Source: Dastarcus helophoroides (lineage: Eukaryota; Arthropoda; Insecta; Coleoptera; Bothrideridae). From it: a stretch of DNA of 64,000 nt. Where the stretch lies: positions 4,905,304 through 4,969,303 of the forward strand of contig CM053328.1 in the NCBI GenBank assembly GCA_028583605.1, in the 5' to 3' direction. This document shows positions 637 to 49,920 of the stretch, in pieces (position 1 is the stretch's first letter; every line of letters starts with the position of its first letter). The position numbers were made by a program, and so were the translations under genes. Under the pieces are notes generated by a model. It did not search any database and had not been told where the DNA came from. It saw only the letters and a program-made list of their open reading frames with translations.

Positions 637-1555
637 CCTCGGGTACTTTCCTTGTTAGCCTCTTTCTCCCCTTTCTTTTCTTCTAAATCTTGCTGCTTTC
701 GGTTGTTAACTTTCCAACCCTCTGTTTATTTTTCGTATTATTCCACCTCTTTCTATGAAAGACGAAGATTCGTGATGTGACTCTAAGCTTCCTCGACTTT
801 TGGAATTTTATTTCATAGTCGTTTAAAGTCGAAATTTCTAGGCTAAAGTGGAACTCCTAGATAAAAAGTCGAAACTTCCACTTTCAAGTCTACATTTTGA
901 GATTGAAACTTTTTGGCAAAATTCGAAACTTTGGGATAATTCACAAAAATTCTATACAAGTAGAATACAACCTAGACTGCAAATGCATGCAACCCTCTAG
1001 GCGTGTGTAGTGAATCATAGGCAGCTGAACTACCAACAGTTGAAACACTGACACCTAGCAAAGCGGTTGCTTTCTATTAAAGTTCCCAGAAGACAAGGAT
1101 TCTAATGCACAGACCAATAGGTTTGAACTAGTCTCTGGTTTGAAAATTTATTGCATACGACATTGTTGGCGTTGGCCATAGTTTTCTCTATGAACCAATA
1201 GATGGCGGTAGTCTGAGAGTCACACATTTGACGTTCTTTGATTCTTTAGTAGTTACTTGTCGGGACATTTATGTTTCTTTTCAATTTATTTAACATTTCT
1301 TCGGAACAGTTTGGAAATATTTAAATTTTTATGGTTTGTAGACAATTTTCTAAACAGTTATTGAAATGCGACTACGTGACATTTAAATTTATTAAAAACG
1401 TCACTTCATGACAGTTCACAAATTAAGAGGTTATTTTATTTTACATAGAATAGGAAGAATGAAAAATAGGAGACCAAAAATTAGATGTGGAAAAAATAAA
1501 AATTTTGTTTTTTTGATAAATTAGGAAAATATAAAAAATACATAAAAAAGTTGTA

Positions 1556-1602
1556 GCACTGGACATCGATGTTTCGCTCTCATTTAAGCTCGTCAGCAGT
1601 GC
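1556..1602 (-). ncRNA. Type I hammerhead ribozyme
   Basis: On the minus strand the segment reads stem I GCACUG, core CUGACGA, stem II GCU/AGC closed by an 8-nt loop, core GAAA, a short stem III (ACAU/AUGU around CG), the cleavage triplet GUC, and the stem I partner CAGUGC. All six stem I pairs are Watson-Crick and every invariant core base is present (CUGANGA, GAAA, UH). The open ends lie in stem I, which makes it type I. Predicted self-cleavage is after the C complementary to position 1562. Very short stem III is typical of type I hammerheads in retroelements, which may act better as dimers. It lies about 215 nt downstream of the tRNA-like promoter on the same strand. Confidence 0.88.
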
Positions 1603-1814
1603 ATAACATGGAAAGGGAAAAATGAGGAAGAAATACCTAAAAATATTTTTTTTTTAAATATAAAAAAGGAAAATAAAGAAATTTTAACATGAATAGACGT
1701 TTTATCATCAATTTACTTTGTTAAAAATTTACTGTGTTAAAAATTTAAATATTTGAAGCCCGATCCACAAGAAACAACTACTCCGAGGGCTAATACCCCT
1801 TCCGGCATTGAACT

Positions 1815-1885
1815 ACACTTGTGGGTCGAACTTACATGCTCTTGGTGACTACTGTTCCTAACCGCTGAAATCTATTCAGCTTGGT
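1815..1885 (-). promoter_or_regulatory. tRNA-like head (internal pol III promoter)
   Basis: On the minus strand, tagatttcagcggttag resembles a tRNA A box (best match to the AGCGGTTA part of Leu/Ser tRNAs). Twenty-four bases later, aagttcgaccc matches the B-box consensus GGTTCGANNCC apart from its first two bases. The anticodon arm does not fold as in a functional tRNA, so this is a tRNA-derived element head and not a tRNA gene. Confidence 0.55.
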
Positions 1886-2927
1886 AGTTAGAAGCACTCA
1901 CCATTTGCGGAGTCCGTTCGTTCCGTTAGAGGAATAAGGGTCAATAAGGGTCTACCATGAAGAATCGGGACATTTGTTAGCATTCGAGTTGTATATACCA
2001 AACTGACGAGATCTAACAAGATCGAAACCGGTGTTTGGTTTCCAAACTTAGAATTTAATAGATGTTCAAATCTATTGTTCGGTGCATTAGAACAAAAATC
2101 CCAAATAAAAGATTTCAAAACGTAACATCGAAATTTCGAAAAAAAAATCTCAAAAATTCAGAACATTTCTTTTTGGAAATTTCGCAGTTTTAAGATGAAA
2201 TTTTAACTTAAAAATCGAACTTTTGTACGTAAATACTCCTAAAAAACTGAAATAACGATATTAAAATTTAAAATTGAGATTAAAATTCTTGATAATACTT
2301 AATTAAAATTCTTGGTAATACTTAGTTGAAATTCTGGGATAAAGTCAGAAATTTCTAAATGACATTTTTGACATTTACGACAATTACAACATTTAGAGTT
2401 TCAAATCGAAATTTTGCATGTGAACCTTTTTGAAAAAAATCGAAATATTGATTTTAGCGTTTAAATTTTGACATCAATATTTTTAATAAATGTAGAAATT
2501 TTGGAATAAAGCACGAAGTTTCTAAATAACATTATTTGGATATTTTAAGTTTATAATCGACATTTCATCTTAAGCTACAATTTTTCCTTAATAAACTCGA
2601 TTTTTAGGTCTTGCGTCCTATGTTGACATAAGTCTAACTGTGGATGAAGATTTGAAAATTATTTACTAAAAGATTGCTCAAAATTTCGCACATTTACCCT
2701 AAAATTATGAAATCAAAGTCGAAATTTCAAGCTGACATTTTGCATTCCATAATTTTTGAGATTTTAAAATTTTTCGTAATTTACGAATATGAAAATAGCA
2801 ATTTTACTTTTAAAATCAAAATCTTACAAAAATGTCAACATTTAAAAAAGTCATCATTTTAAGAAAAAATGCTAACCATTCTGAGACATGTTTCTAGAAT
2901 AAAGTCGAAATTTCGAAAAAACTTTGA

Positions 2928-4925
2928 GCACCAAGCCAGAGGCGAAACACTTCTAAAATGAAAAACGCCAATACTTTCATTTTTTGGTTTTTTTTCTAAC
3001 AATGTTCCAATCCTGTTCCGTTAAAGCGGCATTACTAACAACTTTTTATAAAACACCTGATTTACTGTCGCCGTAAGTGTTATATGATGTTGTAAATTAC
3101 ACAAGTCGAGAATAAACATTATGATTTATTAAGATAACATCCCATACGAACACGTAAAAAGCGGCTCGAATTTTACTAAATGAACGTTGCAAATTAATTG
3201 CTTAACAAATAGCGTCAATTTCCTGACGGATTTCATCCTGCTTAACACGTTACAAATCGAAAACAGCTCATTAACGAAAGCCTGTTATCGAAGCAAGTGT
3301 TAGAATTCAATAAAATTCTAGAAATAAATATAATTTACTCATATTAACCAAAAAAAGCACGTATGACTGGTGATTGGGTATTGAAACACTTGAAATCTTC
3401 CTGAACTTTTGGACTTGAGTCGATAGTTTGCGAAAAATTTTTAACGCGCTTATACTTCTCCAGATCTAGTTATCAAATTCCTTGACGATCTTACCAAAAA
3501 AAAAACAGTATTTCATCCGGTGCTTTTTGCCCAACCGTAACACTGAATTAATTATACCTAATGTGAAGATTTACATTTAGATTTTACATATTTACCGGTA
3601 ACGCCTTCGTCATTAAAATATTCATAACTAATCCGCTAAAGAAAAATAATGGTGACCGTTACTTAACGGTCACCTCGGTGACATAGGAAGAGTTGTCATT
3701 TTTAAATCCACTCTCAAAGGCCCGACTCTTGGAGAAACTGTATAAGAGAAGACACGACGACTTAGTATGGGAAAATGTGCCCGAGAGCCATGTAAACAAA
3801 TGAATGCATAGTTAAAGTTTATGACCCAAGAAGCAGCAACAACCACCACAATCAGCATGAGCATAAAATGCTCAAATTCACGACAGGAAGTGACCTCGGG
3901 GCGATGGTCGGTTATGTATCTAATCGAGTTTATGATATTTACCTGATTGCATAAACGATCCCTTATAAGCAATTACTACTTTGTATTGCTAATATCGCAA
4001 GTAATAAACCGTCAACTGATCACGATTTATTTATTGGTTCTAGAGACGGTATCTTGAACAGAAAATCAATTAAAGTGGAATAGAAACGACGAGTTATTAC
4101 TTAATTTCCTAAAATGTCTTGCAAAAAAAGTAGATTCGTACATTACACCGGATGACTGTTAAGTATCTCGACAAGAAAAGTAGGATTCAGAATCGAGAAA
4201 ACGACAACCTATAATTTAATGTCATAAAATATCCTTCAAAAAAACAGATTCCCACATTACATATGATGATCTGAAGTAGTTGCTTTGGATTTGAAATTTC
4301 TGGTTTCATTGATGGTATCTTAATCAGTATCTTGTATTTTGTACCACTTTTCATTTTAGAAGAGTTACATCTTTGGTATGGTGGACATAATGCAATAAAG
4401 TTTTGAGTTTGGTTTTTTGTTTCTTGTACATTTTTTCTTGCAGTTTAATTGTAATTTTAATTTATTTCTTTTGTTCATCAAGAAACGTCGAACACTTCAA
4501 TATGGTCCAAATCGGTGTATCTTTCACTAACTATGATCGTGAAAACCTTCCTTACCATATTAAAAATTATAAAATCAAAAATGTCTAGAAAACGTTTGAA
4601 ATTTCGAAAAGAAAATTGAAACTTCGATCAATAAATCATCATAATTAGGAGAAAAAATTAAAATTTGGGACAAAATCTATATTTTGGGAAAATGTGCTAT
4701 TTTAAAGAGTTCAAGGCTTTGAATTTAAACTGCAAATTTCTAAAAAATAACAATTGATATTGCAAGGAAAAATTTGAGTTTTTTTTCAGGAATTTATACT
4801 TTTGTTTTGAGTACTAAACGTATGATTTCAACTTTATTATTTTGTACTTTTTTTGACGTCAAAATCATATTGTTGGACTTTAAATTATAATGTTCCATTT
4901 TGTTTCTGAAATTCTTTATTGTATT
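2928..4925. other. Spacer of the giant palindrome, no gene recognised
   Basis: About 2 kb lies between the two arms. It looks like single-copy AT-rich DNA. The most complex part is 3640-3970, which has a 100-codon open frame on the minus strand; its translation is not recognisable and has no supporting splice sites. A perfect 24-bp palindrome sits at 3651-3674. No transposase, reverse transcriptase or integrase motif is visible, so if the palindrome is a transposon it is non-autonomous. Confidence 0.5.
3651..3674. repeat. Perfect short palindrome, 10-bp arms
   Basis: Arms ggtgaccgtt and aacggtcacc are separated by the four bases actt. The arms contain a GGTCA-type half-site like those bound by nuclear receptors, but one occurrence is no evidence of regulation. 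Confidence 0.5.
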
Positions 4926-5382
4926 TCAAAGTTTTTTCGAAATTTCGACTTAATTCTAGAAACATGTCTTAGAATGGTTAGGGTTTTTTTTCTTAAAATG
5001 ACGACTTTTTTTAATATTGAAATTTTTTTAAGATTTTGATTTTAAAAGTAAACTTGCTATTTTCAGTAAATCACGAAATATCTTATTATCTCAAAAATTA
5101 TGAAATGCAAAATATCAGCTTGAAATTTCGACTTTGGTCTCATAATTTAAGGACAAAAGTGCCAAATTTTGAGAAATCTTTTAGTAAATAATGTTCAAAT
5201 CTTCATCCATAATTAGACTTATGTCAACTTAGGACGCAAGGCCTAAAAATCGAGTTTTTTTTAAAGGAGAAATTGTAGCTTAACATGAAATGTCGATTAC
5301 AAACTTAAAATGTCGAAATAATGTTATTCAGAAACTTCGTGCTTTATTTCAAAATCTCTACTTTTATTAAAAATGTTGATAT

Positions 5383-5669
5383 ATATTCTCTGTAATTTAT
5401 TTGCGAAGTATTCATATTTGTATGCAGTTTTATTGGCCTTTTCTTCACCGGTCACTCCTTTCACAATCCTAAATTTCAGTACCTTCTATTAAGGAATGGC
5501 AATCTGTTTTAGATTGCCGCAAACAGCGATTGCGTTGGATCTTGGTTTGTCAATCGCTGTTTGCGGCAATCTAAAACAGATTGCCATTCCTTAATAGAAA
5601 TTACTAAAATTTAGGATTGTGAAAGGAGTGACCGGCGAAGAAAAAGCCAATAAAACTGCATACAAAAAA
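5383..5669. mobile_element. Foldback/MITE-like insertion in right palindrome arm
   Basis: A near-perfect hairpin spans 5417-5666: arms of about 116 bp around an 18-nt loop (5533-5550), the inner 45 bp matching exactly. The left palindrome arm lacks it. The 12-mer aaatgttgatat occurs on both sides (5371-5382 and 5670-5681), consistent with a target duplication, although 34 unpaired bases lie between the left duplicate and the hairpin. It has no coding capacity. A long hairpin like this would be transcribed into a dsRNA stem from either strand. Confidence 0.7.
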
Positions 5670-6061
5670 AAATGTTGATATCAAAATTTGAATGTTAAAA
5701 CCAATATTAAGATTTTTTTCAGAAAGGTTCACATGCAAAATTTCGATTTCAAACTCTAAATGTTGTAATCGTCGTAAATGTCGAAAATGTCATTTAGAAT
5801 TTAGAAATTTCTGACTATCCCAAAATTTCAACTAAGTATTACCAAGAATGTTAATCTCATTTTTGAATTGTTATCTCATTTTTGAATTTTAATACCGCTA
5901 TTTCTTTTGTCTAGGAGAGTTTACGTGCAAAAGTTTGATTTTTAAGTTAAAATTTCATCTTCAAACTCCGTAATTGCCAAAAACAAATGTTCTGAATGTT
6001 TGAGGTTTTCTTCGAAATTTCGACGTTACGTTTTGAAAATTTTTTATTTAGAATTTTTGTT

Positions 6062-6346
6062 CTAATGCAGAGAACAATGGGTTTGAACATTTATTAAATT
6101 CGAAGTTTGGAAACCAAAGACCGCTTTGCGATCTTGTTAGATCTCGTCAGTTTGGTATATCCAACTCGAATGCTAGCAAATGTCCCGACAAGTAAGTACT
6201 AAAGAATGAACGAACGGCAAGCGTGTGACTCTCAGACTACCGCCACCTATTGGTCCATAGAGAAAACTGTGGCCATCGCCAACAATGTCGTGTGCAACAA
6301 ATGTTCAAACCAGAGACTAGTTCAAACCTATTGCTCTGCGCATTAG
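6062..6346. mobile_element. 285-bp TIR element, right copy (intact)
   Basis: This uninterrupted copy begins ctaatgcagagaacaatggg and ends ttgctctgcgcattag. It contains the intact site tcgggacattt (on the minus strand, near 6178-6190) at which the left copy was invaded. The flanks gaatttttgtt and aattcttgtc are similar and may be an eroded target duplication. Confidence 0.6.
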
Positions 6347-6849
6347 AATTCTTGTCTTCTGGGAACTTTCCTAAAGAGCAACCGCTTCGCTAGGTGGCAG
6401 TGTTTTCAACTGTTGGTAGTTCAGCTGCCTATGATTCACTAAACGCGCCTAGAGGGCTGCATGCATTTGCAATTTAGGTTGTATTCTACTCGCACAGGAT
6501 TTTTGTGACCTATCCCAAAGTTTCGAATTTTGTCAAAAAAGTTTCAATCTCAAAATGTAGATATGAAAGTGGAAATTTCGATATTTTATCTAGGAGTTCC
6601 ACTTCAGCCTAGACATTTCGACTTTGAAACGACTATAAAATAAAATTCCAAATGTCGTGGAAGCTTAGAATCACATCAAGAAACGTCGCCTTTCAAAGAA
6701 AGAGGTGAGGTAACACCAACAATAAACAAATGGTTGGAAAGTCGACAGCCTAAAGCAGAAAGATTTAGAAGAAATGAAGGGCAAGAAAGAGGCTAAGTGA
6801 CTCAACGAAAAACATTACCGGAGGAAGGCGAGAAAGCGAGAAAGCGAGG

Positions 6850-14305: not shown

Positions 14306-15894
14306 GTAAAACAGCTAAAGCACAAAATAACCAAACAGTCGATAAGAAAAGTACTGATGGAATACTAAAAACCCAAAAAGTCCAGAGTCAAAAAGCCAAA
14401 AGTCAAAAAAATAAACAAAAAACCAAAGCGCAAAAGTATAACAAAGCAAAAAGGCATCATGTTAAAAGAGTCAAAAGAGGAAAGGAACAAAGAAATGAAA
14501 TGGCAAAAGAGTTAATGTATAAAACACCAAAAATGTAAAAGAACCATTGAAGAAGTTGGCGAATTAAAAAGCAAATGAACAGAAGACTAAGTAAGCATAA
14601 AAGAGCAACAGAGCCTAACCCAAAAAGTCGAGAGTCAAAAATCCAAGCGCCAAAAAAAAAAACAGAAAACCAAAGAGCAAAGGTATAACAAAGCAAAAAG
14701 GCATAATATCAAAAGAACCAAAGGAGGAAAGGAACAAAAGAATAAAATGACAAAAGAGTTAATGTGTAGAAGAGCAAAAAGATAAAAGAACCATTAAAAA
14801 AGTTTGCGAATTCAAAAGCAAATGAGCAGATGAGTAAGTAAGTAGAAGAGCAACAGAGTCAATAATCTAAAGTCAACGAAACAAAGGAGCAGAAAGCAAA
14901 AGGTAAATGGGTAAAAGGGCAAATAAGCAAAAAAGGCCAACAGAACAAATAGGCAAAGGAGCAAAAGAACAAAAGAGTAAAAAACTTTTAGGCAAAGCGT
15001 CGAAGAAGAATCAAATAGCAAATGAGCCAAATAGCTAATGAGCAAAAAAGGCAAACAGAGTAAATAATCTAAAATTAAAGGATCAAAGGAGCAAATGACC
15101 AAATGAGCAAACAAGCAAAAGAGTAAAAGGGCAAAAACCATCGAGTTAAAAAGTCGAAGATTATGGACCGTATTGATGGATGGGGTTAAAGAGGAATCAA
15201 AAATGCAAAAGCCACAAACGCAATAAGCAAAAAAGCAGAGAGGAAAAGCGTCAGAAATCAAAACACCAAAAGAATCAACGAGGGTAAAAATTCAGAAATA
15301 AAGAACAAAAGAGCGAAAAGTTTGAGCCAAAGAGTCAAAGAATCAAAAAACAAATGGACCAAACAGGAAATAAGCAAAAAAGGCCAACAGTTCAAATAAT
15401 TTAAAGTTAAAGGATCAAAGGAGCAAATAACTAAATGAGCAAACAAGCAGAAGAGCAAAAGGGCAAAAAACCATCGAGTTAAAAAGTCGAACGAAAGTTG
15501 GACCGTATTGATGGATGGGGCCAAAGAGGAACCAAAAATGCAGAAGCCAAAAACGCAATAAGCAAAAAAAACAAAGGGCAAAAAGTCAAAAATCAAAACA
15601 CCCAAAGAATCAACAAGAGTAAAAATCTAGACATAAAGGGCAACAGAACCAAAGAGCCAAAAACAGCCAAAAGTCAAAGAGGTAAAGAGCCAAAGAGCAA
15701 AAGAAGAATCAGAGAGCAAGAGAGCCAAAGCTACAAAAACAAAAAAAAAGCAGAGGGTAAAAGAGAGAAAAAGCAAAAGAACCAGAGAGGACGAGAGCCA
15801 AAGCGGTAAAAACAAAAGAAGTAGAAGGCAAAAAACCATTGAGGTAAAAAGTCGAAGATTATGGACGATATTGATGGAGGGGGAGAGTTAGATT

Positions 15895-16262
15895 TCTGTC
15901 AGAGACAACACATGGGGTCTTCATTTTGAGTTTAGAGTTTGGGTTTAGCCCCCGAATGTTACAGAATTGAATTTTGAATGAATAATTTGAAAGAAACTTG
16001 GCCCGTGACACATTAAAACCTTTCGTCGATTTTGGATTCCCTCGCACACTCTCCATCCGAAGATCCGAACGGGAGGGTTCGGAACTTTTTGCACGAAGAG
16101 AATCATCATGGTAACGAAGGTTTTCACGGCCAGAGTCAGTACAGGATATACTTCTTCCGGGATTGGATCGTGTCAAAGAACTACTTAAATTGTTCACACA
16201 TTTTATGTAGTTCTGTGACACGGTCCAATCCCGGAAGAAGTATATCCGGAATTCATCATCTT
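15895..16262 (-). pseudogene. Remnant of a non-LTR retrotransposon, start of endonuclease domain
   Basis: The minus-strand frame runs without a stop over about 145 codons. Near its end (about 15930-15990) it contains FKIQFCNIRGLNPN, which resembles the first beta strand of the apurinic-type endonuclease of arthropod non-LTR elements (a core N-x-RGL block). Conservation stops after that block, so the element is truncated and lacks the catalytic endonuclease residues and reverse transcriptase. The upstream, Ser/Arg-rich part encodes the inverted repeat at 16144-16247. The assignment rests on one motif from memory of the family. Confidence 0.45.
16144..16247. repeat. Hairpin with 41-bp arms
   Basis: Arms 16144-16184 and 16207-16247 are inverted copies with two mismatches around a 22-nt loop. 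The arm sequence begins ggatatacttcttccggg. It overlaps the retrotransposon remnant and abuts the 285-bp element fragment, so it may mark a rearrangement or the end of a small foldback element. Confidence 0.85.
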
Positions 16263-16267
16263 TACTT

Positions 16268-16405
16268 TTAATGCACAGACCAATAGGTTTGAACATTTAT
16301 TAGATTCGAAGTTTGGAAACCAAAGACCGGTTTCGATCTTATTAGATCTATACACGCCTGGAGGGCTGCATGAATTTGTAGTCTAGGTTGCATTCTACTT
16401 GCATA
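16268..16405 (+). mobile_element. Deleted third copy of the 285-bp TIR element
   Basis: It starts ttaatgcacagaccaatagg, matching the terminus of the elements at 1102 and 6062, and follows the right-arm copy through gatcttattagatct. It then jumps to sequence equivalent to 6442-6495 (gcctggagggctgcatg), outside the 285-bp unit. About 290 bp is therefore missing relative to the palindrome arm, so this copy derives from the arm itself or from its parent family. Confidence 0.65.
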
Positions 16406-20492: not shown

Positions 20493-21563
20493 TGATTTTT
20501 GTATTTTGTATTTTGTATTTTGTATTTTGTATTTTGTATTTTGTATTTTGTATTTTGTATTTTGTATTTTGTATTTTGTATTTTGTATTTTGTATTTTGT
20601 ATTTTGTATTTTGTATTTTGTATTTTGTATTTTGTATTTTGTATTTTGTATTTGTATTTTGTATTTTGTATTTTGTATTTTGTATTTTGTATTTGTATTT
20701 TGTATTTTGTATTTTGTATTTGTATTTTGTATTTTGTATTTTGTATTTGTATTGTATTTTGTATTTTGTATTTTGTATTTTGTATTTTGTATTTTGTATT
20801 TTGTATTTTGTATTTTGTATTTTGTATTTTGTATTTTGTATTTTGTATTTTGTATTTTGTATTTTGTATTTTGTATTTTGTATTTTGTATTTTGTTTGTA
20901 TTTGTATTTTGTATTTTGTATTTTGTATTTTGTATTTTGTATTTTGTATTTGTATTTTGTATTTTGTATTTTGTATTTTGTATTTGTATTTTGTATTTTG
21001 TATTTTGTATTTTGTATTTTGTATTTTGTATTTTGTATTTTGTATTTTGTATTTTGTATTTTGTATTTTGTATTTTGTATTTTGTATTTTGTATTTTGTA
21101 TTTTGTATTTTGTATTTTGTATTTTGTATTTTGTATTTTGTATTTTGTATTTGTATTTTGTATTTTGTATTTTGTATTTTGTATTTTGTATTTTGTATTT
21201 TGTATTTTGTATTTTGTATTTTGTATTTTGTATTTTGTATTTTGTATTTTGTATTTTGTATTTTGTATTTTGTATTTTGTATTTTGTATTTGTATTTTGT
21301 ATTTGTATTTTGTATTTGTATTTGTATTTTGTATTTTGTATTTTGTATTTTGTATTTTGTATTTTGTATTTTGTATTTTGTATTTGTATTTTGTATTTGT
21401 ATTTTGTATTTTGTATTTTGTATTTTGTATTTTGTATTTTGTATTTTGTATTTTGTATTTTGTATTTTGTATTTTGTATTTTGTATTTTGTATTTTGTAT
21501 TTTGTATTTTGTATTTGTATTTTGTATATTTGTATTTTGTATTTTGTATATTTGTATTTTTTT
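20493..21563 (+). repeat. TATTTTG heptamer array (about 150 units)
   Basis: Over 1 kb of tandem TATTTTG, with occasional six-base units (tatttg) that shift phase. All three plus frames stay open and read as repeats of YFVFCIL, which explains the apparent 370-400-codon frames. The array decays at its right end into tatatttgtat. Confidence 0.97.
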
Positions 21564-21761
21564 ATATTTTTATCAAAATATACTTTGAATCTTCTGAAAT
21601 GTCATATTTTATTTTGAAAGTTTCGAGTTTTTGTTTTCAAAATTATTATTTTAAGAAAAAATGAAGGGATTTCAAAAAGAAAGAAGATTTTGAATTAAAA
21701 TACCAAAAAGTATAATTTTGAGAATAAAGCCGAATTTTCAAAAAAAAAACACTTTTGAATG

Positions 21762-21850
21762 TTGTACGTTGTATGTTGTATGTTGTATGTTGTATGTTGT
21801 ACGTTGTATTTTATACGTTGTAGCTTGTACTTTGTATTTTGTGTTTTGTA
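21762..21850 (+). repeat. TATGTTG/TACGTTG heptamer block
   Basis: Around a dozen heptamers of the form tatgttg or tacgttg. They start a second heptamer complex 200 bp after the TATTTTG array and share its unit length. Confidence 0.85.
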
Positions 21851-22243
21851 TTATATTTCGTATTTCGCATTTTGTATTTCCTACTTTGTATTTCGTATTT
21901 CGTATGTCCTATTTTCTATTTCCTATTTCCTATTTCCTATTTCCTATTTCCTATTTCCTATTTCCTATTTCCTATTTCCTATTTCCTATTTCCTATTTCC
22001 TATTTCCTATTTCCTATTTCCTATTTACTATTTCCTATTTCCTATTTCCTATTTCCTATTTCCTATTTCCTATTTCCTATTTCCTATTTCCTATTTCCTA
22101 TTTCCTATTTCCTATTTCCTATTTCCTATTTCCTATTTCCTATTTCCTATTTCCTATTTCCTATTTCCTATTTCCTATTTCCTATTTCCTATTCCCTATT
22201 CCCTATTCCCTATTTCCTATTCCCTATTCCCTATTCCCTATTC
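21851..22243 (+). repeat. TATTTCC heptamer array
   Basis: Mixed tatttcg and tatttcc heptamers give way to about 40 uniform TATTTCC units, then TATTCCC variants near 22190-22240. Confidence 0.95.
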
Positions 22244-23073
22244 CGTATTTCGGATTTCGTATATCGTGTTTCGTATTTCGTTATTCGTATTTCGTATTTC
22301 GTATTCCGTATTCCGTATTTCGTATTTCGTATTTCGTATTTCGTATTTCGTATTTCGTATTTCGTATTTCGTGTTTCGTATTTCGTATTTCGTATTTCGT
22401 ATTTCGTATTTCGTATTTCGTATTTCGTATTTCGTATTTCGTATTTCGTATTTCGTATTTCGTATTTCGTATTTCGTATTTCCGTAGTTCGTATTTCGTA
22501 TTTCGTATTTCGTATTTCGTATTTCGTATTTCGTGTTTCGTATTTCGTATTTCGTATTTCGTATTTCGTATTTCGTATTTCGTATTTCGTATTTCGTATT
22601 TCGTATTTCGTATTTCGTATTTCGTATTTCGTATTTCGTATTTCGTATTTCGTATTCCGTATTCCGTATTTCGTATTTCGTATTTCGTATTTCGTATTTC
22701 GTATTTCGTATTTCGTATTTCGTATTTCGTATTTCGTATTTCGTATTTCGTATTTCGTATTTCGTATTTCGTATTTCGTATTTCGTATTTCGTATTTCGT
22801 ATTTCGTATTTCGTATTTCGTATTTCGTATTTCGTATTTCGTATTTCGTATTTCGTATTTCGTATTTCGTATTTCGTATTTCGTATTTCGTATTTCGTAT
22901 TTCGTATTTCGTATTTCGTATTTCGTATTTCGTATTTCGTATTTCGTATTTCGTATTTCGTATTTCGTATTTCGTATTTCGTATTTCGTATTTCGTATTT
23001 CGTATTTCGTATTTCGTATTTCGTATTTCGTATTTCGTATTTCGTATTTCGTATTTCGTATTTCGTATTACGT
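22244..23073 (+). repeat. TATTTCG heptamer array (about 118 units)
   Basis: Very homogeneous TATTTCG units with rare tattccg and tgtttcg variants. Each unit holds a CpG, so the array is a run of over 100 CpGs in AT-rich DNA. Open frames (YFVFRIS repeats) are artefacts. Confidence 0.97.
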
Positions 23074-24358
23074 AAAAAAGTACATTTTGAATGAAAATAT
23101 CATTTTGAGAACAAAAGCCGAATTTTCAAAAAAAACCTTATTTCGAGAGAAAAGATAAAAATTTCAAGAAAAAACGAATTTAGGGAAAAAGTCTAAATTT
23201 TCAGAAACTTTAGGAATTTAGTAAAAATTTCTAAACATTTAGATTGTAAAAGATGGAAAATTAAAAAAAATCCTAAAATAACGGAGTTTCCAGAAAAAAA
23301 GATGACATTTCCAGAAAAAAAAGGTCGATGTTTCGACGGTCGAATATTAAGAAAAAAAATCGAAATTATTCAAAGAAAGTTTGACAGTCGATTTTTATGA
23401 AAAAGGAGAATTTTATAATAAAATGAAAATTTAAGAAAAAAAACGAATCCGAAATTCCGAAAAAGACGTACTTTGGCAAAAAGACCAAATTTCATGAAAA
23501 CAAAAGAAATTTACTACAGAAAGTCAAATTTTGAAAAAAATAGTCTTTTGAGAATAGTTGTCCATGAAAAAGACGAATTTTGAACAGAAAAATCGAAATT
23601 TTAAGAAAAAGGCGAAGTTGAGATTGTTAGAATTATAAAAGATTTCGAAAAGAAGCTTTCGAGAAAAATTTCAAAATAGAAATAAGCGAATGTCAAGCAA
23701 AAAATTTAAATCTACAAAAACAAATTTTGAACCAAAAAATACGAATTTCAAAACAAAAAATAGAAATTTCACAAAAAAAGAATCAACATTTCGAAAGAGA
23801 AGACCAATTTTGAAAAAGTCGTCATTTCCAGAAACACTAAATACCGAATTTCGAGATAAACATGAAAATTTCGAAAAAAAAAAACAATTAAATCTTAAGC
23901 AAAGTATCGGAAAGTTGTGATTTTAGCAAATATTTCAAAAAGTATCTAATGTTAACAACAATAACGAAATTTCGAGAAAAACAAAAAAAGAAAATTTTGA
24001 GAGAATGTCAAATTTTAAGAAAATGGTCGAATTTTGCTAATTAAAGCGAAATTAAAACAAGGATGAATTTTGAAAAACCAACAATTGAAAAAATAGACGA
24101 ATTCCGAGAAAAAATTGAAAATTCGCATAGAATATCACGTTTTGATAGATCTATGAAAAAAAAAAAGAATTTTGAAAACGTCAATAAAAAAGAGACGAAT
24201 TTCGAGGAATGAAATTAAAATTTCCAAGAACGGAAACGAATTATGAAAATAGATCGAGAAAAATATGAAAATTGCGAGAAAAATATCGACATTTCAAGAA
24301 AGAAGACGAAATCTAGTAGAAATCCAAAATATCTTGGAGAATTCAATTTTGTTAAATT
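23074..24358. other. Degenerate A-rich DNA (cgaaatttt type)
   Basis: Imperfect phrases such as aaaaagacgaattttgagaa. No coding or RNA feature seen; the 76-codon frame at 23690 is K/N/F-rich low complexity. Confidence 0.7.
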
Positions 24359-24640: not shown

Positions 24641-24893
24641 TTTGAAAATTCGAAATCGACATTTTTACAGAAGAATTAGAAAATATGAAAATTTTGACAT
24701 ACCGAAATTTTTAAAACAATCAAAATTTTCAAAAAGTCGAAGTTTCCAAAAAGTTTAAATTTTCATAAAGTGGGAGTTTTCAAAAATGAAGAATAAAAAC
24801 AGTTTTGAGAAAGGCATCATTTCGAGAAAATCTTGGAATAGTTAGTCAATTTTTTAAAATACAAATCTTGCCCCTAAATTCCTAAAAAAATGT

Positions 24894-26830
24894 TCAAAAT
24901 TAACAGAAATTGAAATACAAATCTTGTCCCCTGAAACCAAAAACGATTAAGAAACACAACAGAGGTTGTTCAAACGCGTTTCGGTAGCCAAGTTATCATC
25001 TTCAGAGAGATACTGAACTTTTTGAAAAAAGGTTGAAATTTTCATTAGAAATTCCTAAAAAAATGTTCAAAATTAACAGAAATTGAAATACAAATCTTGT
25101 CCCCTGAAACCAAAAACGATTCAGAAACACAACAGAGGTTGCTCTAACGCGTTTCGATAGCCAAGTTATCATCTTCAAAGAGATACTGAACTTTTTGAAA
25201 AAGGGTTGAAATTTTCATTAAAAATTCCTAAAAAAATGTTCAAAACTAACAGAAATTGAAATACAAATCTTGTCCCCTGAAACCAAAAAAGATTAAGAAA
25301 CATAACAGAGGTTGCTCTAACGCGTTTCGATAGGCAAGTTATCATCTTCAGAGAGATTCTGAACTTTTTGAAAAACGATTGAAATTTTCATTAAAAATTC
25401 CTAAAAAAATTTTCAAAATTAACAGAAATTGAAATACAAATCTTGTCCCCTGAAACCAAAAAAGATTAAGAAACACAACAGAGGTTGTTTTAACGCGTTT
25501 CGATAGCCAAGTTCTCATCTTCAGAGACACTGAACTTTTTGAAAAACGGTTGAAATTTTCATTAGAAATTCCTAAAAAAATGTTCAAAATTAACAGAAAT
25601 TGAAATACAAATCTTGTCCCCTGAAACCAAAAACGATTAAGAAACACAACAGAGGTTGTTCAAACGCGTTTCGGTAGCCAAGTTATCATCTTCAGAGAGA
25701 TACTGAACTTTTTGAAAAAAGGTTGAAATTTTCATTAGAAATTCCTAAAAAAATGTTCAAAATTAACAGAAATTGAAATACAAATCTTGTCCCCTGAAAC
25801 CAAAAACGATTCAGAAACACAACAGAGGTTGCTCTAACGCGTTTCGATAGCCAAGTTATCATCTTCAAAGAGATACTGAACTTTTTGAAAAAGGGTTGAA
25901 ATTTTCATTAAAAATTCCTAAAAAAATGTTCAAAATTAACAGAAATTGAAATACAAATCTTGTCCCCTGAAACCAAAAAAGATTAAGAAACATAACAGAG
26001 GTTGCTCTAACGCGTTTCGATAGGCAAGTTATCATCTTCAGAGAGATTCTGAACTTTTTGAAAAACGATTGAAATTTTCATTAAAAATTCCTAAAAAAAT
26101 TTTCAAAATTAACAGAAATTGAAATACAAATCTTGTCCCCTGAAACCAAAAAAGATTAAGAAACACAACAGAGGTTGTTTTAACGCGTTTCGATAGCCAA
26201 GTTCTCATCTTCAGAGACACTGAACTTTTTGAAAAACGGTTGAAATTTTCATTAGAAATTCCTAAAAAAATGTTCAAAATTAACAGAAATTGAAATACAA
26301 ATCTTGTCCCCTGAAACCAAAAACGATTAAGAAACACAACAGAGGTTGTTCAAACGCGTTTCGGTAGCCAAGTTATCATCTTCAGAGAGATACTGAACTT
26401 TTTGAAAAAAGGTTGAAATTTTCATTAGAAATTCCTAAAAAAATGTTCAAAATTAACAGAAATTGAAATACAAATCTTGTCCCCTGAAACCAAAAACGAT
26501 TCAGAAACACAACAGAGGTTGCTCTAACGCGTTTCGATAGCCAAGTTATCATCTTCAAAGAGATACTGAACTTTTTGAAAAAGGGTTGAAGATTCGTTAA
26601 AAATTCCTAAAAAAATGTTCAAAATTAACAGAAATTGAAATACAAATCTTGTCCCCTGAAACCAAAAAATCGTACTCTAACGCGTTTCGATAGCCAAGTT
26701 ATCATCTTCAGTGAGATACTAAACTTTTTGAAAAAGGGTTGAAATTTTCAGTAGAAATTCCTAAAAAAATGTTCAAAATTAACAGAAGTTAAAAAACAAA
26801 TCTTGGTTTCAGGGAACAAGATTTGTAATC
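24894..26830 (-). repeat. 172-bp satellite derived from the hairpin repeat, in 4-monomer higher-order units
   Basis: Eleven monomers start with aattgaaatacaaatcttgt near 24910, 25081, 25256, 25432, 25601, 25771, 25946, 26119, 26291, 26461 and 26634. Each is a minus-strand copy of the dispersed repeat plus a spacer (ttgaaattttcattagaaat). Every fourth monomer is the same subtype; subtype a has ggttgttcaaacgcgtttcg and subtype d gttctcatcttcagagacac. The 690-bp tetramer occurs twice in full and once in part, almost identical between copies; the last monomer is degraded. Confidence 0.92.
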
Positions 26831-31650: not shown

Positions 31651-33190
31651 TACGTTCCAAAAGGACCTTAGCGTGGAGCACAATTAAAGTGTATCATGTG
31701 GCATATCAAATGAAAGAGCGTAACGCGTCGAACAAGTAGAAAATAACGAAAAGTGCCAAAAGGTCCTTAATAGTGGACATAATTCAAGTGTAGCATGCGA
31801 CATATCAAATGAAAGAGCGAAACGCGTCGAACAAGTAGAAAGTAACGAAAAGTGCCAAAAGGTCCTTAATAGTGTAGCATGTGACATATCAAATGAAAGA
31901 GGGTAACGCGTCGAACAAGCAGACAGTAACAAAAAATGCCAAATAGGCCTTAGTAGCGGACATAATTCAAGTGTAGCATGTGACGTGTCGAATAAAAGAG
32001 CGTCATGCGTCAAACAAGTAGAAAGTAACGAAAAATGCCAAAAGGGCCTTAGTAGCGGACATAGTTCAAGTGTAGCATGTGACATATCAAATGAAAGAGC
32101 GTAACGCGTCCAACAAGTAGAAAGTAACGAAAAGTGCCAAAAGGGCCTTAGTAGTTGACATAATTCAAGTGTAGCATGTGACATATCAAATGAAAGAGCG
32201 TAACGCGTCGAACAAGTAGAAAGTAACGAAAAGTGCCAAAAGGACCTTAGTAGTTGAGATAATTTAAGTGCAGCATGCGACATATCAAATGAAAGAGCGT
32301 AACGCGTCGAACAAGTAGAAAGTAACGAAAAGTTCCAAAAGGGCCTTAGTAGTTGACATAATTCAAGGGTAACATGTGACATCAAATGAAAGAGCGTAAC
32401 GCGTCGAACAATTAAATAGTGACGAAAAGTGCCAAAAGGGCCTTAGTAGCGAACATAATTCAAGTGTAGCATGTGACGTGTCAAATAAAAGAGCGTAATG
32501 CATCGAACAAGTAGAAAGTAACGAAAAATGCCAAAAGGGCCTTAGTAGCGGACATAGTTCAAGTGTAGCATGTGACACATCAAATGAAAGAGCGTAACGC
32601 GTCGAACAAGTAGAAAGTAACGAAAAGTGCCAAAAGGGCCTTAGTAGTTGACATAATTCATGTATAGCATGTGACATATCAAATAAAAGAGCGTAACGCA
32701 TTGAACAAGTAAAAAGTAATGAAAAGTGCCAAAAGGGCCTTAGTAGTTGAGATAATTTAAGTGCAGCATGTGACGTGTCAAATAAAAGAGCGTAATGCGT
32801 CGAACAAGTAGAAAGTAACGAAAAATGCCAAAAGGGCCTTAGTAGCGGACATAATTCAAGGGTAGCGTGTGACATATCAAATCAAAGAGCGTAACGCATT
32901 GAACAAGTAGAAAGTAACGAAAAGTGCCAAAAGGGCCTTAATAGTTGACATAATTCAAGGGTAGCATGTGACATATCAAATAAAAGAGCGTAACGCGTCG
33001 AACAAGTAGAAAGTAACGAAAAGTGCCAAAAGGGCCTTAGTAGTTGACATAATTCAAGTGTGGCATGTGACCTATCAAATGAAAGAGCTCATTGAGTAGT
33101 ACAATAAGGCGGTAACGAAAATCGCCCAAAGAGACACTTTTGAAGACCAGTATGTGACATATTAAATAAAAGGGCGTAACGCTCAGACAG
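31651..33190 (-). repeat. 99-bp tandem array, about 15 copies
   Basis: Units contain ccaaaagggccttagtag, gtagcatgtgacatatcaaa and gcgtaacgcgtcgaacaag. Consecutive units at 32041, 32140 and 32239 are 99 bp apart. Because 99 is divisible by three, the minus strand keeps frames of 233 and 170 codons open, each a repeat of 33 residues (LLRPFWHFSLLSTCSTRYAL is part of it). Some units are shorter and break frame. The flanks give no start context or splice sites, so I call it a satellite. Confidence 0.9.
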
Positions 33191-36929: not shown

Positions 36930-37100
36930 AGTATCTCTAACGCGTTTCGACAAGCAAGCTATCATCTTCAGAGAGATACTAACTACTACCGTTAGTATCT
37001 CTCGTTTGTTGTGTTTAATCTTTCTTTCCTTCAGGGGACAAGTTGTGTATTTCAATTTTTGAAGATAAGCAAGGACCAGTCCGTTCCACTAAAAAAATTC
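36930..37100 (+). repeat. Dispersed hairpin repeat inserted in the 405-bp satellite
   Basis: A minus-strand 5' part (ctaacgcgtttcgacaagc to tcatcttcagag) is followed by a plus-strand remainder (tttgttgtgtttaatc to aaggaccagtccgttccac). The two meet at the perfect palindrome agagatactaac (36972-36983) and gttagtatctct (36991-37002). Confidence 0.8.
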
Positions 37101-40100
37101 ACCAAAAAGTGAAGTATCTTATATTTTACGATTAAAAATCTTTTCTGATCGATTTCTAAGCCACGGGTTCGCAGAATTGTACTTTTAGCGTTGGATATTT
37201 GAAAGTGTTCAATTGTATCTAAGCAATATTGGTTTACCGCAAATTGTAGCCGTGGAAGTACTTATGTTTCTACGGCAGTTGTTCCTAATCAATCTTTTTT
37301 TTACCGTCTCGTTTTTCAACCGACTCGTTCTTTAACCGTCTCGTTCTTACATCGTCTCGTTTGTTCACTGTAAAATATCTAAATATTTCACTGTTGCAAT
37401 TCTCCTGTGCTCAATTTCTAAGTTACTTGTCTACAGACTGGTTCCTACACCGACGATATTTAACTTCTTGCGATTGTACCGGCCAAATATTGATTTATTA
37501 CGAATTTCAGCGGTGAAAATATTGATGTTTCTGCTGCACTTGTCCCTAACCAATCTCTTTTATGTTTTGACATTAAATTATTGCATTTCACGGTTAAAAA
37601 GCTCAGTTTCACGGTGCAACCCGTGCTTAAAAACTTAAACGTAATCGTATATTTTTTATATTCCGCGGTAAATTTTTAATATCTGTCCTATTCTGTCGGT
37701 TCTTTTCTATCGTTCTTCTACCGTAAAATATACCATATTTCTCAGTTGGAACTCTTCTTTGCTTATTTACTAAGTAAATCTCGCAAAGTTGTAGTTTCAC
37801 CGTTGATATTTAAAATTTGGCGCTTGCACCGTCCAAATATCGATTTATTGCAAATTTCAGCGGTGGAAATATTATTGTTTTTGCTGCAGTTATCTCTAAC
37901 CAATCTTTTTTACGTTTTGACGCTAAATTATTGCATTTCACGGTTAAAAAGCTCAGTTTCACGGTGCAACCCCTGCTTAAAAACGTAAATGTAATTGTAT
38001 ATTTTTTATTTCGTTGTTTATAAGTGATGTGATCTAGATTTATGTTGTTTTACTGGAAAATTGTTGTGTATTCCTTGCTTAATTTTTAATATTTGTCCTA
38101 TTATTTCGGTTTTACCCGCAAAATCACGGTTTCAATTTTGCTGTGCTTAACTTCTAAGTTATTTGTCTACAGAGTTGTACCTACTCCGTCTATATTTAAC
38201 TTTTTGCGATTGCACCGGCCAAATATTGATTTATTGCAAATTTCAGTGGTGGAAATATTGATATTTCTGCTGCAGTTGTCCCTAACCAATCTCTTTCATG
38301 TTTTGACACTAAATTATTGCATTTTACGGTTAAAAAGTTCAGTTTTACGGTGAAACTTCTGCTTAAAAACGTAAACGTAATCGTTTATTTTTTATTTCGT
38401 TGCTTATAAGTGTTGTGATCTGTATTTGTGTTGTTCTACTGTAAAATTTTTAATATTCCGCGGTAAATTTTTAATATTTGTCCTATTCTGTCGATTCTTT
38501 TCTATCGTTCTTCTACCGTAAAATATACCATATTTCTTGGTTGAAACTCCTCTTTGCTCATTTATTAAGCTAAGCTCGCAAAGTTGTACCTTCACCGTTG
38601 ATATTTAAAATTTTGCGGTTGCACCGGCCAAATATCGATTTATTGCAAATTTCAGCGGTGGAAATATTAATGTTTCTGCTGCAGTTGTCTCTAACCAATC
38701 CCTTTCACGTTTTGACACTGAATTATTGCATTTCACGGTTAAAAAGCTCAGTTTCACGGTGCAACCTCTGCCTTAAAACCTAAACGTAATCATATATTTT
38801 TTATTTCGTTGCTTATAAGTATAGTGATCTATGTTTGTGTTGTTTTACCGTAAAATTTCTGATATTCCGCGGTTAATTTCAGATATTTATCCTATTTCGT
38901 TGGTTTTTTTATCTCGTTCTCTTACCCCAAAAAAATATACCAATTTCACGGTTAGAAATCTTCTTTGTTTATTTTCTAAGTAAAGCTTGCAAAGTTGTAC
39001 TTTTACCGTCGATATTTAAAATTTTGCGGTTGCACCGGCCAAATATCGATTTATTGCGAATTTCAGCGGTGGAAATATTAATGTTTCTGCTGCAGTTGTC
39101 TCTAACCAATTTCTTTCACGTTTTGACACTGAATTATTGCATTTCACGGTTAAAAAGCTCAGTTTCACGGTGCAACCTCTGCTTAAAAACTTAAACGTAA
39201 TCGTATATTTTTGATTTCGTTACTTATAAGTATTGTGATCTATGTTTGTGTTGTTTTACCGTGAAATTTCTGATATTCCGCGGTTAATTTCAGATATTTG
39301 TCCTACTCCATTGGTACTTTTCTCTCGTTCTTTTACCGTAAAATATACCATATTTCACGGTTGGAACTCTTATTTGTTTATTTTCTAAGTAAAGCTTGCA
39401 AAGTTGTACTTTTACCGTCGATATTTAAAATTTTGCGGTGACACCGGCCAAATATTGATTTATTGCGAATTTCAGCGGTGGAAATATTAATGTTTCTGCT
39501 TCAATTGTCCCTCATCAATCTCTTTATTGTTTTGACGCTGAATTATTACATTTCACGGTTAAAAAGCTCCGTTTCACGGTGCAACCCCTGCTTAAAAACG
39601 TAAATGTAATTGTATATGTTTTATTTCGTTGTTTATAAGTGCTGTGATCTATATTTGTGTTGTTTTACTGTAAAATTTTTGTATATTCCTTGCTTAATTT
39701 TTGATATTTGTCCTATTATTTCGGTTTTACTCGCAAAATCACGGTTTCAATTCTGCTGTGCTCAACTTCTAAGTTACTTGTCTACAGAGTTGTACCTACT
39801 CCGTCAATATTAAACTTTTTGCGATTGCACCGGCCAAATATTGATTTATTGCAAATTTCAGCGGTGGAAATATTGATGTTTCTGCTGCAGTTGTCCCTAA
39901 TCAATCTCTTTCATGTTTTGACATTAAATTATTGCATTTCACCGTTAAAAAGCTCAATTTCACGGTGCAACCCTTGCTTAAAAACTTAAACGTAGTCGTA
40001 TATTTTTTATTTTGTTGCTTATAAGTGTTGTGATCTGTGTTTGTGTTGTTTTACTGCAAAATTTTTTATATTTCACGGTTAATTTTTAATATTTGTTTTA

Positions 40101-43100
40101 TTCTGTCGGTTATTTTCTGTTATTTTTTACCGTAAAATATACCATATTTAACGGTTGGAACTCTTTTGCTTATTTACTAAGTAGAGCTCGCAAATTTGTA
40201 CTTTCACCGTTGGTGTTTAAAATTTTGCGGTTGCACCGGCCAAATATGAATTTATTGCGAATTTCAGCGGTGAAAATATTAATGTTTCCACTTCAGTTGT
40301 CTCTTACAAATCTCTTTTATTTTTTGACGCTGAATTATTGCATTTCACGATTAAAAAGCTCAGTTTCACGGTACAACTTCTGCTTAAAAACCTAAATTTA
40401 ATTGTGTATTTTTTATTTCGCTGTTAATAAGTATTGTGATCTATATTTGTGTTGTTTTACCGTAAAATTTTTGTATATTCCTTGCTTAATTTTTAATATT
40501 TGTCCTATTATTTTGGTTTCACCTGCAAGTTTTTTTAAATTTTGTCCTTTTAGATCTAAAACTTTAAATTTCTTAAACAATTTCTAAGCAAAATTCTGAT
40601 TTTATTAAAATTTTGGCCGTGATAATAAATTATCTGTGCAAGAAACTCCTTTTATTTACAAATTTAAATTCTTCTTTCGTAAAGTATCTTCTTTTTTAGG
40701 ATTAAAACTCTTCTCCGATCGATTTCTAAGCCACGTGTTCGCAGAGTCGTACTTTTACCGTTGGATATTTAAAAGGTTTCAATTGTATCTGCGCAATATT
40801 GATTTACGGCAAATTGTAGCCGTAGAAGTACTTATGTTTCCACGGCAGTTAATCCTTATCAACCTTTTTTTACCGTCTCATTTTTTAATCGACTCGTTCT
40901 TTAACCGTCTCGTTCTTTAACAGTCTCGTTCTTTAACCGTTTCGTCTGTTTACCGTGAAATATAAAATAATTCACGGCTGGAATTCTCCTGTGCTCAACT
41001 TCTACGTTCCGTGTCTACACAGTTGTACCTACACCGTCAATATATAACTTTTTGCGATTGCACCGGCCAAATATTGATTTATTGCAAATTTCAACGGTGG
41101 AAATAATAATGTTTCTGCTGCAGTTGTCCCTAACCAATCTTTTTCACGTTTTTACGCTGAATTATTGCATTTCACGGTTAAAAAGTTGAGTTTCACGGTG
41201 CAACTTTTGCTTAAAAACGTAAACTTAATTGCATATTTTTTATTTCGTTGTTCATAAGTGTTGTAATCTAGGTTTATATTGTTTTACCATAAAATTTTTG
41301 ATATTCTGTGGTTAATTTTTGATATTTGTCCTATTATGTCGGTTTCATTCGCAAAATTTTTCATTTCCCCCCTTTTAGATCTTAAACTTTAAACTTCTTA
41401 AACAATTTCTAAGCGAAATTCTGATTTTATTGAAATTTTGGCCGTGATATTAAATTTTCTGTGCAAGAAACTCCTTTTATTCACAATTTTAAATTCTTCT
41501 TCCGTAAAGTATCTTCTATTTTAGAATTAAAGCTCTTCTCCGATCGATTTCTAAGCCGCCTGTTCGCAGAGTTGTACTTTTACCGTTGGATATTTGAAAG
41601 CTTTTAATTGTATCTGCGCAGTATTGGTTTACGGAAAATTGTAGCAGTGGAAGTACTTACGTTTCTACGGTAGTTGTTTCTAGTCAATCTTTTTTTACCG
41701 CCACGTTTTTTAACCGACTAGTCCTTTAACCGTCTCGTTCTTCCACCGTCTCGTCTGTTTACCGTAAAATATCGAATATTTCACGGTTAGAATTCTTCTG
41801 TGCTCAGTTTCTTAGTTGCATGTCTACAGAGTTGTACCTGCACCGGCGGTATTGAAAATTTTGCGATTGCACAAGCCAAATATTGATTTATTGCGAATTT
41901 CAGCGGTGGAAATATTAATGTTTCTGCTTCAGTTGTCCCTAACCAATTTTCTTTCATGTGTTGACGCTAAATTATTGCATTTAACGGTTAAAAAACTCAG
42001 TTTCACGGTGCAACCTCTGCTTAAAAACGTAAATGTAATTGCATATTTTTTATTTCGTTGTTTATAAGTGTTATGATCTATGTTTGTGTTGTTTTACCGT
42101 GAAATTTTTGATATTTCGCGATTAATTTTTAATCTTTGTCCTATTCTGGCGGTTTCACCCTCAACATTTTTCTTCTTTAGATCTAAAACTCCAAACTTTT
42201 TAAACAAACAATGTCTAGGCGAAATTTTGATTTTATTGAAATTTCGACCTTCATATTAAATCCTCTGTGTAAGAAACTCCTTTTATTTACAATTTTACAT
42301 TCTTCTACCATGAAGTTTCTTATATTTTACGATTAAAACTCTTCTCCGATTGATTTCTAAGCCGCGTGTTCGCAGAGTTGTACTTTTACTGTTGGATATT
42401 TGAAAGTATTTAAATGTATCTACCCAATATTGGTTTACCGCAAATTGTAGCCGTGGAAGTACTTATGTTTCTACGGCAGTTGTTCCTAGTCAATCTTTCT
42501 TTACTGTTTCGTTTTTTAACCGACTCGTTCTTTAATCGTCTCGTTCTTTAACTGTCTCGTTCTTTAACCGTCTCGTCTTTTTACCGTGAAATATTTAATA
42601 TTTCACGGTTGGTATTCTTCTGTGCTTAACTTCCAAGTTACGTGTTTACAAAGTTGTACCTACACCATTGATATTTAAAATTTTGCAATTGGGCCTGCCA
42701 AATATTGATTTATTGCAAATTTTAGCGGTGGAAATATTAATGTTTCTGCTGCAGTTGTCCCTAACCAATCTCTTTCATGTTTTGACCCTAAATTATTGCA
42801 TTTCACGGTTAAAAAGCTTAGTTTCACGGTACAACCCCTGCTTAAAAACGTAAATGTAATTGTATATTTTTTATTTTGTTGCTTGTAAGTGTTGTGATCT
42901 AGGTTTGTGTTGTTTTAGTGCAAAATTTTCGATATTTCGCGGTTAAGTTTGATATTTGTCCTATTCTGTCGGTTCTTTTCTGTCGTTCTTTTACCGTAAA
43001 ATATACCATATTTTACGGTTGGAACCCTTCTATGCTTATTTTCTAAGTAAAGCTTGCAAAGTTGTACTTTCACCGTTGATATTTAAAATTTTGTGGTGGC

Positions 43101-47028: not shown

Positions 47029-47060
<32 letters not shown>

Positions 47061-49125: not shown

Positions 49126-49920
49126 GTCTAAATCCATACGAAAAAATCCGAAATTTTGAAAAATAGTTCACGAATATAATCGAAAATTTAAAAAAAATAT
49201 CGAGATTTATAATGAAACTCGAAATTTTTAAAGAAAAATCAAAATTTTGAGCAAAATTGAAATTTAAAAAAAAATGCAAGTTTGTAAAAAGTAAAGACAA
49301 GAAGCAGGAGAAAGATATAATTAGAAAAATAAATCTAAAGTTTTAATAAAGTCGAAGTAAAAAAAAACAAATTTTCAAGAAACTCGATATTTTTTAAATA
49401 AGAATTTTCAAGGAATGGAAATTTTGATAAAATATCAACATTTTCAACGAAGTCAATACTTTAAAAAAAAACCGAAATTTTCCTAAAACCCCAAAATTTA
49501 GAGGGTCCAAATTTTTCATCGTAATTTAAAAAAAAAGCCGAAATTTTCGAAAAAGTCTTACTTACATTCAAGAGTCGAAATTCTTAGCAAAATAAACATT
49601 TTGAACAAAATAAACATTTTGAAAAAAAATCGAAATTTAAAGAAAAGGTTCCAAGTCTCAAAAAAGTTAAAAGTTAAAATTTTGAAAAAGGGTCCAAATT
49701 TTGAAATAAAATTAATATTTCCAATATTTCCAAAAAAAATTTAAACCTAGTCCGGTGTTAGCAAATATTTATCAAAAGCTTGTGAAATTTTTGAATATCT
49801 GTTCCTTTTTAATAGTTAATAAAGTTTAATAATTATGAAAAAACTTGATATCAAAAACAGTTGAAATGTTCAAGAAGAGCTGAAATTTGGGGAAAAAATC
49901 GAAATTTTCAGAAAATCTTG
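49126..49920 (+). other. Degenerate A-rich DNA (cgaaatttt type)
   Basis: A continuation of the 45.3-47.0 kb repeat beyond the polypurine tract. No gene seen. Confidence 0.7.

Follow-up and report, generated by a model that had tools for sequence, protein, structure and literature searches.

The 64,000-nucleotide stretch of the Dastarcus helophoroides genome analysed here, referred to as the window at its full length, raises the question of whether a hammerhead-like sequence on its minus strand is a genuine ribozyme and, if so, what kind of element carries it. An earlier note on this DNA had described a complete type I hammerhead inside a retroelement-like insertion. We consider it probable, at roughly 70%, that the sequence is a genuine type I ribozyme, that its carrier is a short, non-coding mobile element of retrozyme or SINE-like character, and that the ribozyme would cut itself with the aid of dimer formation.

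A type I hammerhead motif on the minus strand

The ribozyme motif, called hammerhead 1 to distinguish it from an older one close by, comprises the following features.

1556–1602, minus strand: hammerhead 1, a type I hammerhead ribozyme motif, identified from the sequence and the Rfam HH9 model, and the only strict descriptor match
1563–1572, minus strand: stem III of hammerhead 1 with its loop, a 10-nt palindrome ACAUCGAUGU, identified from the sequence and the double-hammerhead co-fold, with C17 next to it at 1562

Read directly off the minus strand from 1602 to 1556, the stem I strand GCACUG is followed by CUGACGA, by stem II (GCUU and GAGC enclosing loop 2, AAAUGA), by GAA, by stem III (ACA and UGU enclosing the loop UCGA), by the C17 that completes the GUC triplet and by the second stem I strand, CAGUGC. 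Stem I is paired at 6/6 positions and is the open stem, as expected of a type I hammerhead; stem II has four pairs, the last of them U-G, and stem III has three. The core is complete (C3 U4 G5 A6 N7 G8 A9, G12 A13 A14, the A15.1-U16.1 pair and H17), and both sequence and descriptor place intact pairs next to it in stems I, II and III (G-C, G-C and A-U, respectively). Cleavage is predicted between 1562 and 1561. The type I assignment of the earlier note, its ordered minus-strand elements from CUGACGA to GUC with an intact core, and its six perfect stem I pairs are all borne out; the stem II that it gave as GCU/AGC is likewise present, with four pairs in place of the three it had counted. Core and core-adjacent pairs are also what Perreault et al. 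(2011; PMC3088659) use to accept a hammerhead, in the part of that paper available to us, and on its sequence hammerhead 1 possesses all of them.

The motif stands out against chance. A strict descriptor (stem I of at least six pairs, stem II of at least four, stem III of at least two, H17 and an intact core) matched the window once, at hammerhead 1, and matched none of 40 simulated windows, which were generated by a second-order Markov model, each 128 kb long and equivalent to both strands of one window. When stem I was relaxed to at least four pairs and stem II to at least three, with one additional base permitted before stem II, five loci were found, against a simulated mean of 0.125; the four loci other than hammerhead 1 are copies of an 18-copy satellite motif considered below. 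Infernal aligned the HH9 model (RF02275) to 1539–1612 of the minus strand with 35.8 bits, corresponding to an E-value of 2.3e-6 over 6 kb and 2.5e-5 over the 64-kb window. HH9, which we take to be a vertebrate intronic hammerhead, shares with hammerhead 1 the core, a four-pair stem II and a six-base loop, and the internal loop in stem I (UUAU/UAC, where the model has UUAC/UAC) is also similar, a resemblance of loops that is one of sequence only. The Rfam covariance search proposed in the earlier note has given a significant match by E-value, while nowhere in the window does any family attain its gathering score, the cut-off for HH9 being 52 bits. This is not decisive, as HH9 is a narrow family.

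It could still be argued that hammerhead 1 is a chance resemblance, or a dead motif lying in an unrelated insertion and incapable of self-cleavage. Such an explanation would be consistent with the sub-gathering score, with the absence of any further copy within the window at up to three mismatches, and with a folding energy that is unremarkable (z −0.90 for 1556–1602 and −0.59 for 1550–1610). It is difficult to reconcile with the empty result from the simulated windows, with the E-value over the window and with a second, independent hammerhead element close by, and we regard it as the least probable of the explanations considered here. At the level of sequence, hammerhead 1 is confirmed as a real, canonical type I hammerhead motif that exceeds chance expectation.

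The insertion and its older neighbour

The surroundings of hammerhead 1 are organized by a large palindrome, within which one insertion is nested in another.

655–6796, no strand: large palindrome with arms at 655–2927 and 4926–6796, found by self-comparison and serving as the reference frame for the insertion
1260–1270, no strand: first copy of the 11-bp target-site duplication, from comparison with the right arm
1271–1964, minus strand: 694-bp non-coding insertion containing hammerhead 1, missing from the right arm, with a longest stop-free stretch of 70 aa
1965–1975, no strand: second copy of the 11-bp target-site duplication, identical to the first, from the same comparison
1823–1831, minus strand: box-B-like motif GTTCGACCC, a putative pol III promoter element by motif position
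1857–1867, minus strand: CAGCGGTTAGG, which accompanies the box-B-like motif, by motif position
953–2091, plus strand: older hammerhead element with a length of about 434 bp when the 1271–1964 insertion and one copy of the 11-bp duplication are discounted, from a three-copy alignment and its flanks
1997–2039, plus strand: left-arm copy of hammerhead 2 with G at the cleavage position, from the HH9 match and copy comparison
6113–6156, minus strand: right-arm copy of hammerhead 2 with a disrupted GAAA element, from copy comparison
16266–16405, minus strand: third copy of the older element, lacking the 5' half of the hammerhead, from self-comparison and copy alignment

The arms of the palindrome are 87–89% identical within their matched pieces. 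A spacer of about 2 kb lies between them, and later insertions differ from one arm to the other. Between 1270 and 1965 the left arm is broken, while the right arm runs through without interruption and so displays the empty site, with a single copy of the 11-bp repeat at the corresponding place. The comparison suggests that the 694-bp insertion is younger than the duplication of the arms. A hammerhead-bearing insertion can hence be delimited exactly, with the empty site, the duplication and the relative age all provided by one palindrome.

Within the insertion no stop-free frame exceeds 70 aa, and the descriptor scan detects no second intact hammerhead. When the insertion was compared with the window using a word size of 7, terminal inverted repeats were not seen, and the 40 best matches included no other copy of it. 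Internally there is a 17-bp inverted repeat (1315–1331 and 1738–1754), and GC content ranges from 0.21 to 0.49 per 100-bp block. The ribozyme strand folds somewhat better than shuffled sequences (z −3.4 against 20 shuffles, −2.3 against 60), the opposite strand more weakly (z −1.4). Of the retroelement-like insertion proposed in the earlier note, the insertion itself is upheld by the duplication and the empty site, and the assignment to a retroelement class is not, as there is neither a long frame nor another copy in the window.

The Sm-alpha repeats of schistosomes offer a promoter comparison for a hammerhead-bearing SINE, and the 694-bp insertion might by analogy be a SINE of tRNA origin, transcribed by pol III, with a hammerhead included by chance in its body. 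On the ribozyme strand it does contain the motif that we take to be box-B-like, with half of what we take to be a box-A-like motif 36 bases upstream, and its 3' end on that strand is A-rich, as is the entire region. Against this, ARAGORN found no tRNA, both box motifs lie inside long predicted hairpins, and five T runs of at least five bases each are situated between box B and the ribozyme, so that a pol III transcript would probably end before hammerhead 1 was reached. These features make such a SINE unlikely.

Our preferred reading, a short non-coding element of retrozyme or SINE-like character, draws further support from the element into which the insertion is nested. The older element lies on the opposite strand, and its hammerhead 2 is about 400 bp from hammerhead 1. 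The left-arm copy is matched by HH9 with 33.4 bits over 1984–2057 (E-value 0.00014 over the window) and is predicted to be inactive because of the G at its cleavage position. All three copies of the older element in the window are broken, each at a different place. In each palindrome arm it is flanked by 10-bp repeats that are 9/10 identical, and the third copy by 13-bp repeats that are 12/13 identical; it folds better than shuffled sequences, with z −3.6 in the left arm and −2.0 in the right. At this single locus a younger, intact ribozyme therefore adjoins an older, decayed one.

Two observations concern the neighbourhood of the third copy. A hairpin of about 100 bp at 16144–16247, which adjoins it, matches MIR821 on both strands far below the gathering score, and a 145-aa frame at 15862–16296 on the minus strand gave six candidates and no homologue at an E-value of 1e-5 or below.

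Folding as monomer and dimer, and the proposed mechanism

Nearest-neighbour modelling gives stems I and II of hammerhead 1 high pairing probabilities in a short context (0.99 and 0.91), the value for stem I being 0.53 with 80-nt flanks and 0.90 with 150-nt flanks. The probability of stem III in the monomer is only 0.01–0.06 over the contexts tried, and the best fold of an isolated monomer is an alternative that retains stems I and II, at −10.8 kcal/mol compared with −8.3 kcal/mol for the hammerhead. Stem III and its loop nevertheless form a perfect palindrome of ten bases. For two copies, the co-fold of lowest energy, on which the dimer reading rests, is a double hammerhead in which a 10-bp helix III joins the two; its energy is −32.9 kcal/mol, compared with −10.8 kcal/mol for the best fold of a single copy. 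In a survey of all tetraloops, 25/256 gave such a dimer helix and the natural one ranked sixth, which renders the palindrome suggestive rather than proof.

Comparable behaviour has been described elsewhere. The available part of PMC3088659 reports Aedes hammerheads whose palindromic stem III can form 10 bp of pairing on dimerization, including one that did not cleave and for which the authors propose a possible dimer requirement. According to the parts of PMC7229834 at hand, axolotl hammerheads cleave far better as dimers, and the invertebrate hammerheads assayed cleave well as monomers, which by analogy speaks against a dimer requirement for hammerhead 1. Because its stem III is both weak and palindromic, two copies are probably required for efficient cutting, and a lone copy would then be slow unless paired with another transcript; we expect slow cutting by a lone hammerhead 1 and better cutting by dimers.

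From the motif, insertion, duplication and empty site we infer the following course of events. A non-coding element of retrozyme or SINE-like character would have been inserted at 1271–1964 by retrotransposition, generating the 11-bp target-site duplication. Its minus strand may be transcribed, either by read-through or from a promoter of the element, and the RNA would fold as a hammerhead and be cleaved 3' of the GUC triplet to give a 2',3'-cyclic phosphate end and a 5'-OH end, with two copies pairing via the 10-bp helix III for efficient cutting. Tandem copies elsewhere could supply unit-length RNAs for circularisation and for reverse transcription by a partner element. The 1271–1964 locus alone would give no unit-length product, since the window contains the element only once and the insertion has just the one hammerhead. 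If expressed, hammerhead 1 would be an additional animal source of ribozyme-made RNA ends.

This reading is favoured by the complete core with its adjacent pairs, the descriptor and Infernal significance, the exact duplication with its empty site, the co-fold energies together with the 10-bp palindromic stem III described for Aedes, and the second hammerhead-bearing element with flanking repeats of its own in the same arm. Duplications longer than 4 bp and a GC content below 50%, reported for animal retrozymes in the portion of PMC7229834 consulted, point the same way. Several features count against it: the lone copy with its one hammerhead, the Rfam score below gathering, the weak stem III of the monomer, the stem I probability obtained with 80-nt flanks, a palindromic loop that is only mildly special, and a length exceeding the 170–400 nt that the same source gives for animal retrozymes.

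Comparison with known hammerhead elements, and the remaining repeats

The closest parallel is with the animal non-LTR retrozymes, which the available text of PMC7229834 describes as usually tandem. Hammerhead 1 shares with them a canonical type I fold with a short stem III on a non-coding, low-GC element in which no LTR is seen, and its 11-bp duplication is longer than 4 bp. The insertion differs in that it consists of just one unit, 694 bp long, with a lone hammerhead. Small circular RNAs are a further feature of retrozymes. We prefer to say that the insertion may work like a retrozyme without calling it one, because neither the unit size nor the tandem arrangement is found at this locus.

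Type I hammerheads are also reported, in the parts of PMC7761336 and PMC6155905 available, from Penelope-like elements and Terminons, and the insertion might be a fragment of a Penelope-like element that retained the hammerhead of a pseudo-LTR and lost its coding part. Like hammerhead 1, those ribozymes are of type I, and they too are retroelement-borne. As described there, they are minimal, lacking helix III or loop-loop contacts, and reside in the pseudo-LTRs of coding elements, whereas hammerhead 1 has three pairs in stem III, an HH9-like internal loop and a six-base loop 2, and is the one hammerhead of its insertion. A Penelope reverse transcriptase frame is missing from the 694 bp, where no stop-free frame is longer than 70 aa. 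The link that the earlier note drew to Penelope-like elements through a tiny stem III is consequently weak, and descent from such an element seems very unlikely.

The repeat-type hammerhead of Aedes aegypti (PMC3088659, in the part consulted) is likewise repeat-associated, with 10-bp dimer pairing of stem III and loop, a likeness by description and not by sequence. The pDo500 hammerhead of Dolichopoda, as far as PMC2837043 was available, is of type I and of similar size (49 bp) and occurs in repetitive DNA; it belongs to a satellite of about 500 bp, while hammerhead 1 lies in a single insertion. Hammerheads borne by elements of this kind are on record from many animal genomes, and the present one leaves existing knowledge of hammerheads unchanged.

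A second hammerhead-like sequence, the satellite motif found by the looser descriptor, was considered separately.

24876–26668, minus strand: 173-bp tandem array with 10 copies of the satellite motif CTGAAGAT-hairpin-CGAAAC..GTTAGAG, from tandem-repeat and fuzzy scans
18717, 19865, 19883, 20180, 24413, 26711, 36971 and 51533: copies of the satellite motif outside the array, from the fuzzy scan

These 18 copies were recognized among 26 fuzzy-scan matches, the remaining eight being judged unrelated. The motif has its elements in hammerhead order, but an additional base separates A9 from stem II in 12/12 aligned copies. In the copy at 36930–36980 on the minus strand, stem I has nine pairs. Pairs were counted in 12 of the 18 copies, omitting six from the array whose variants were already represented, and 80.6% of cells were paired compared with 27.8–34.8% for slid structures. 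Covariation did not rise above shuffles, 330/500 of which reached its score, the hammerhead models reported nothing for the motif at an E-value of 5 or below in the 64-kb window, and a text search of the literature found no match to its exact sequence. As the additional base breaks the consensus, the models are silent and covariation is no better than in shuffles, the satellite motif was not accepted as a hammerhead. Scans of viral contigs with the core patterns of hammerheads 1 and 2 and with the 173-bp satellite motif returned 0 stretches each, and are little informative because that collection is not one of animal genomes. The idea that the window records successive hammerhead generations (the intact hammerhead 1, the older, decayed hammerhead 2, and the satellite motif as a hammerhead variant in which stem II is preceded by one additional U and the cleavage site is GUU, amplified as a retrozyme-like array) is very unlikely.

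Other repeats are abundant in the window. At 5417–5666 a self-complementary stretch of 250 bp, inserted only in the right palindrome arm, matches Rfam MIR7533 below gathering (119.7/230 bits) and looks like a MITE-type hairpin rather than a microRNA gene. Very long simple-repeat arrays occupy 20497–23074 and 47029–49126, with units of 7 bp and 4 bp. Further tandem arrays at 31657–33088, 38173–40509, 52981–55785 and 62292–63352 have periods of 99, 409, 126 (387) and 134 bp, respectively, and were covered by the window-wide ribozyme scans.
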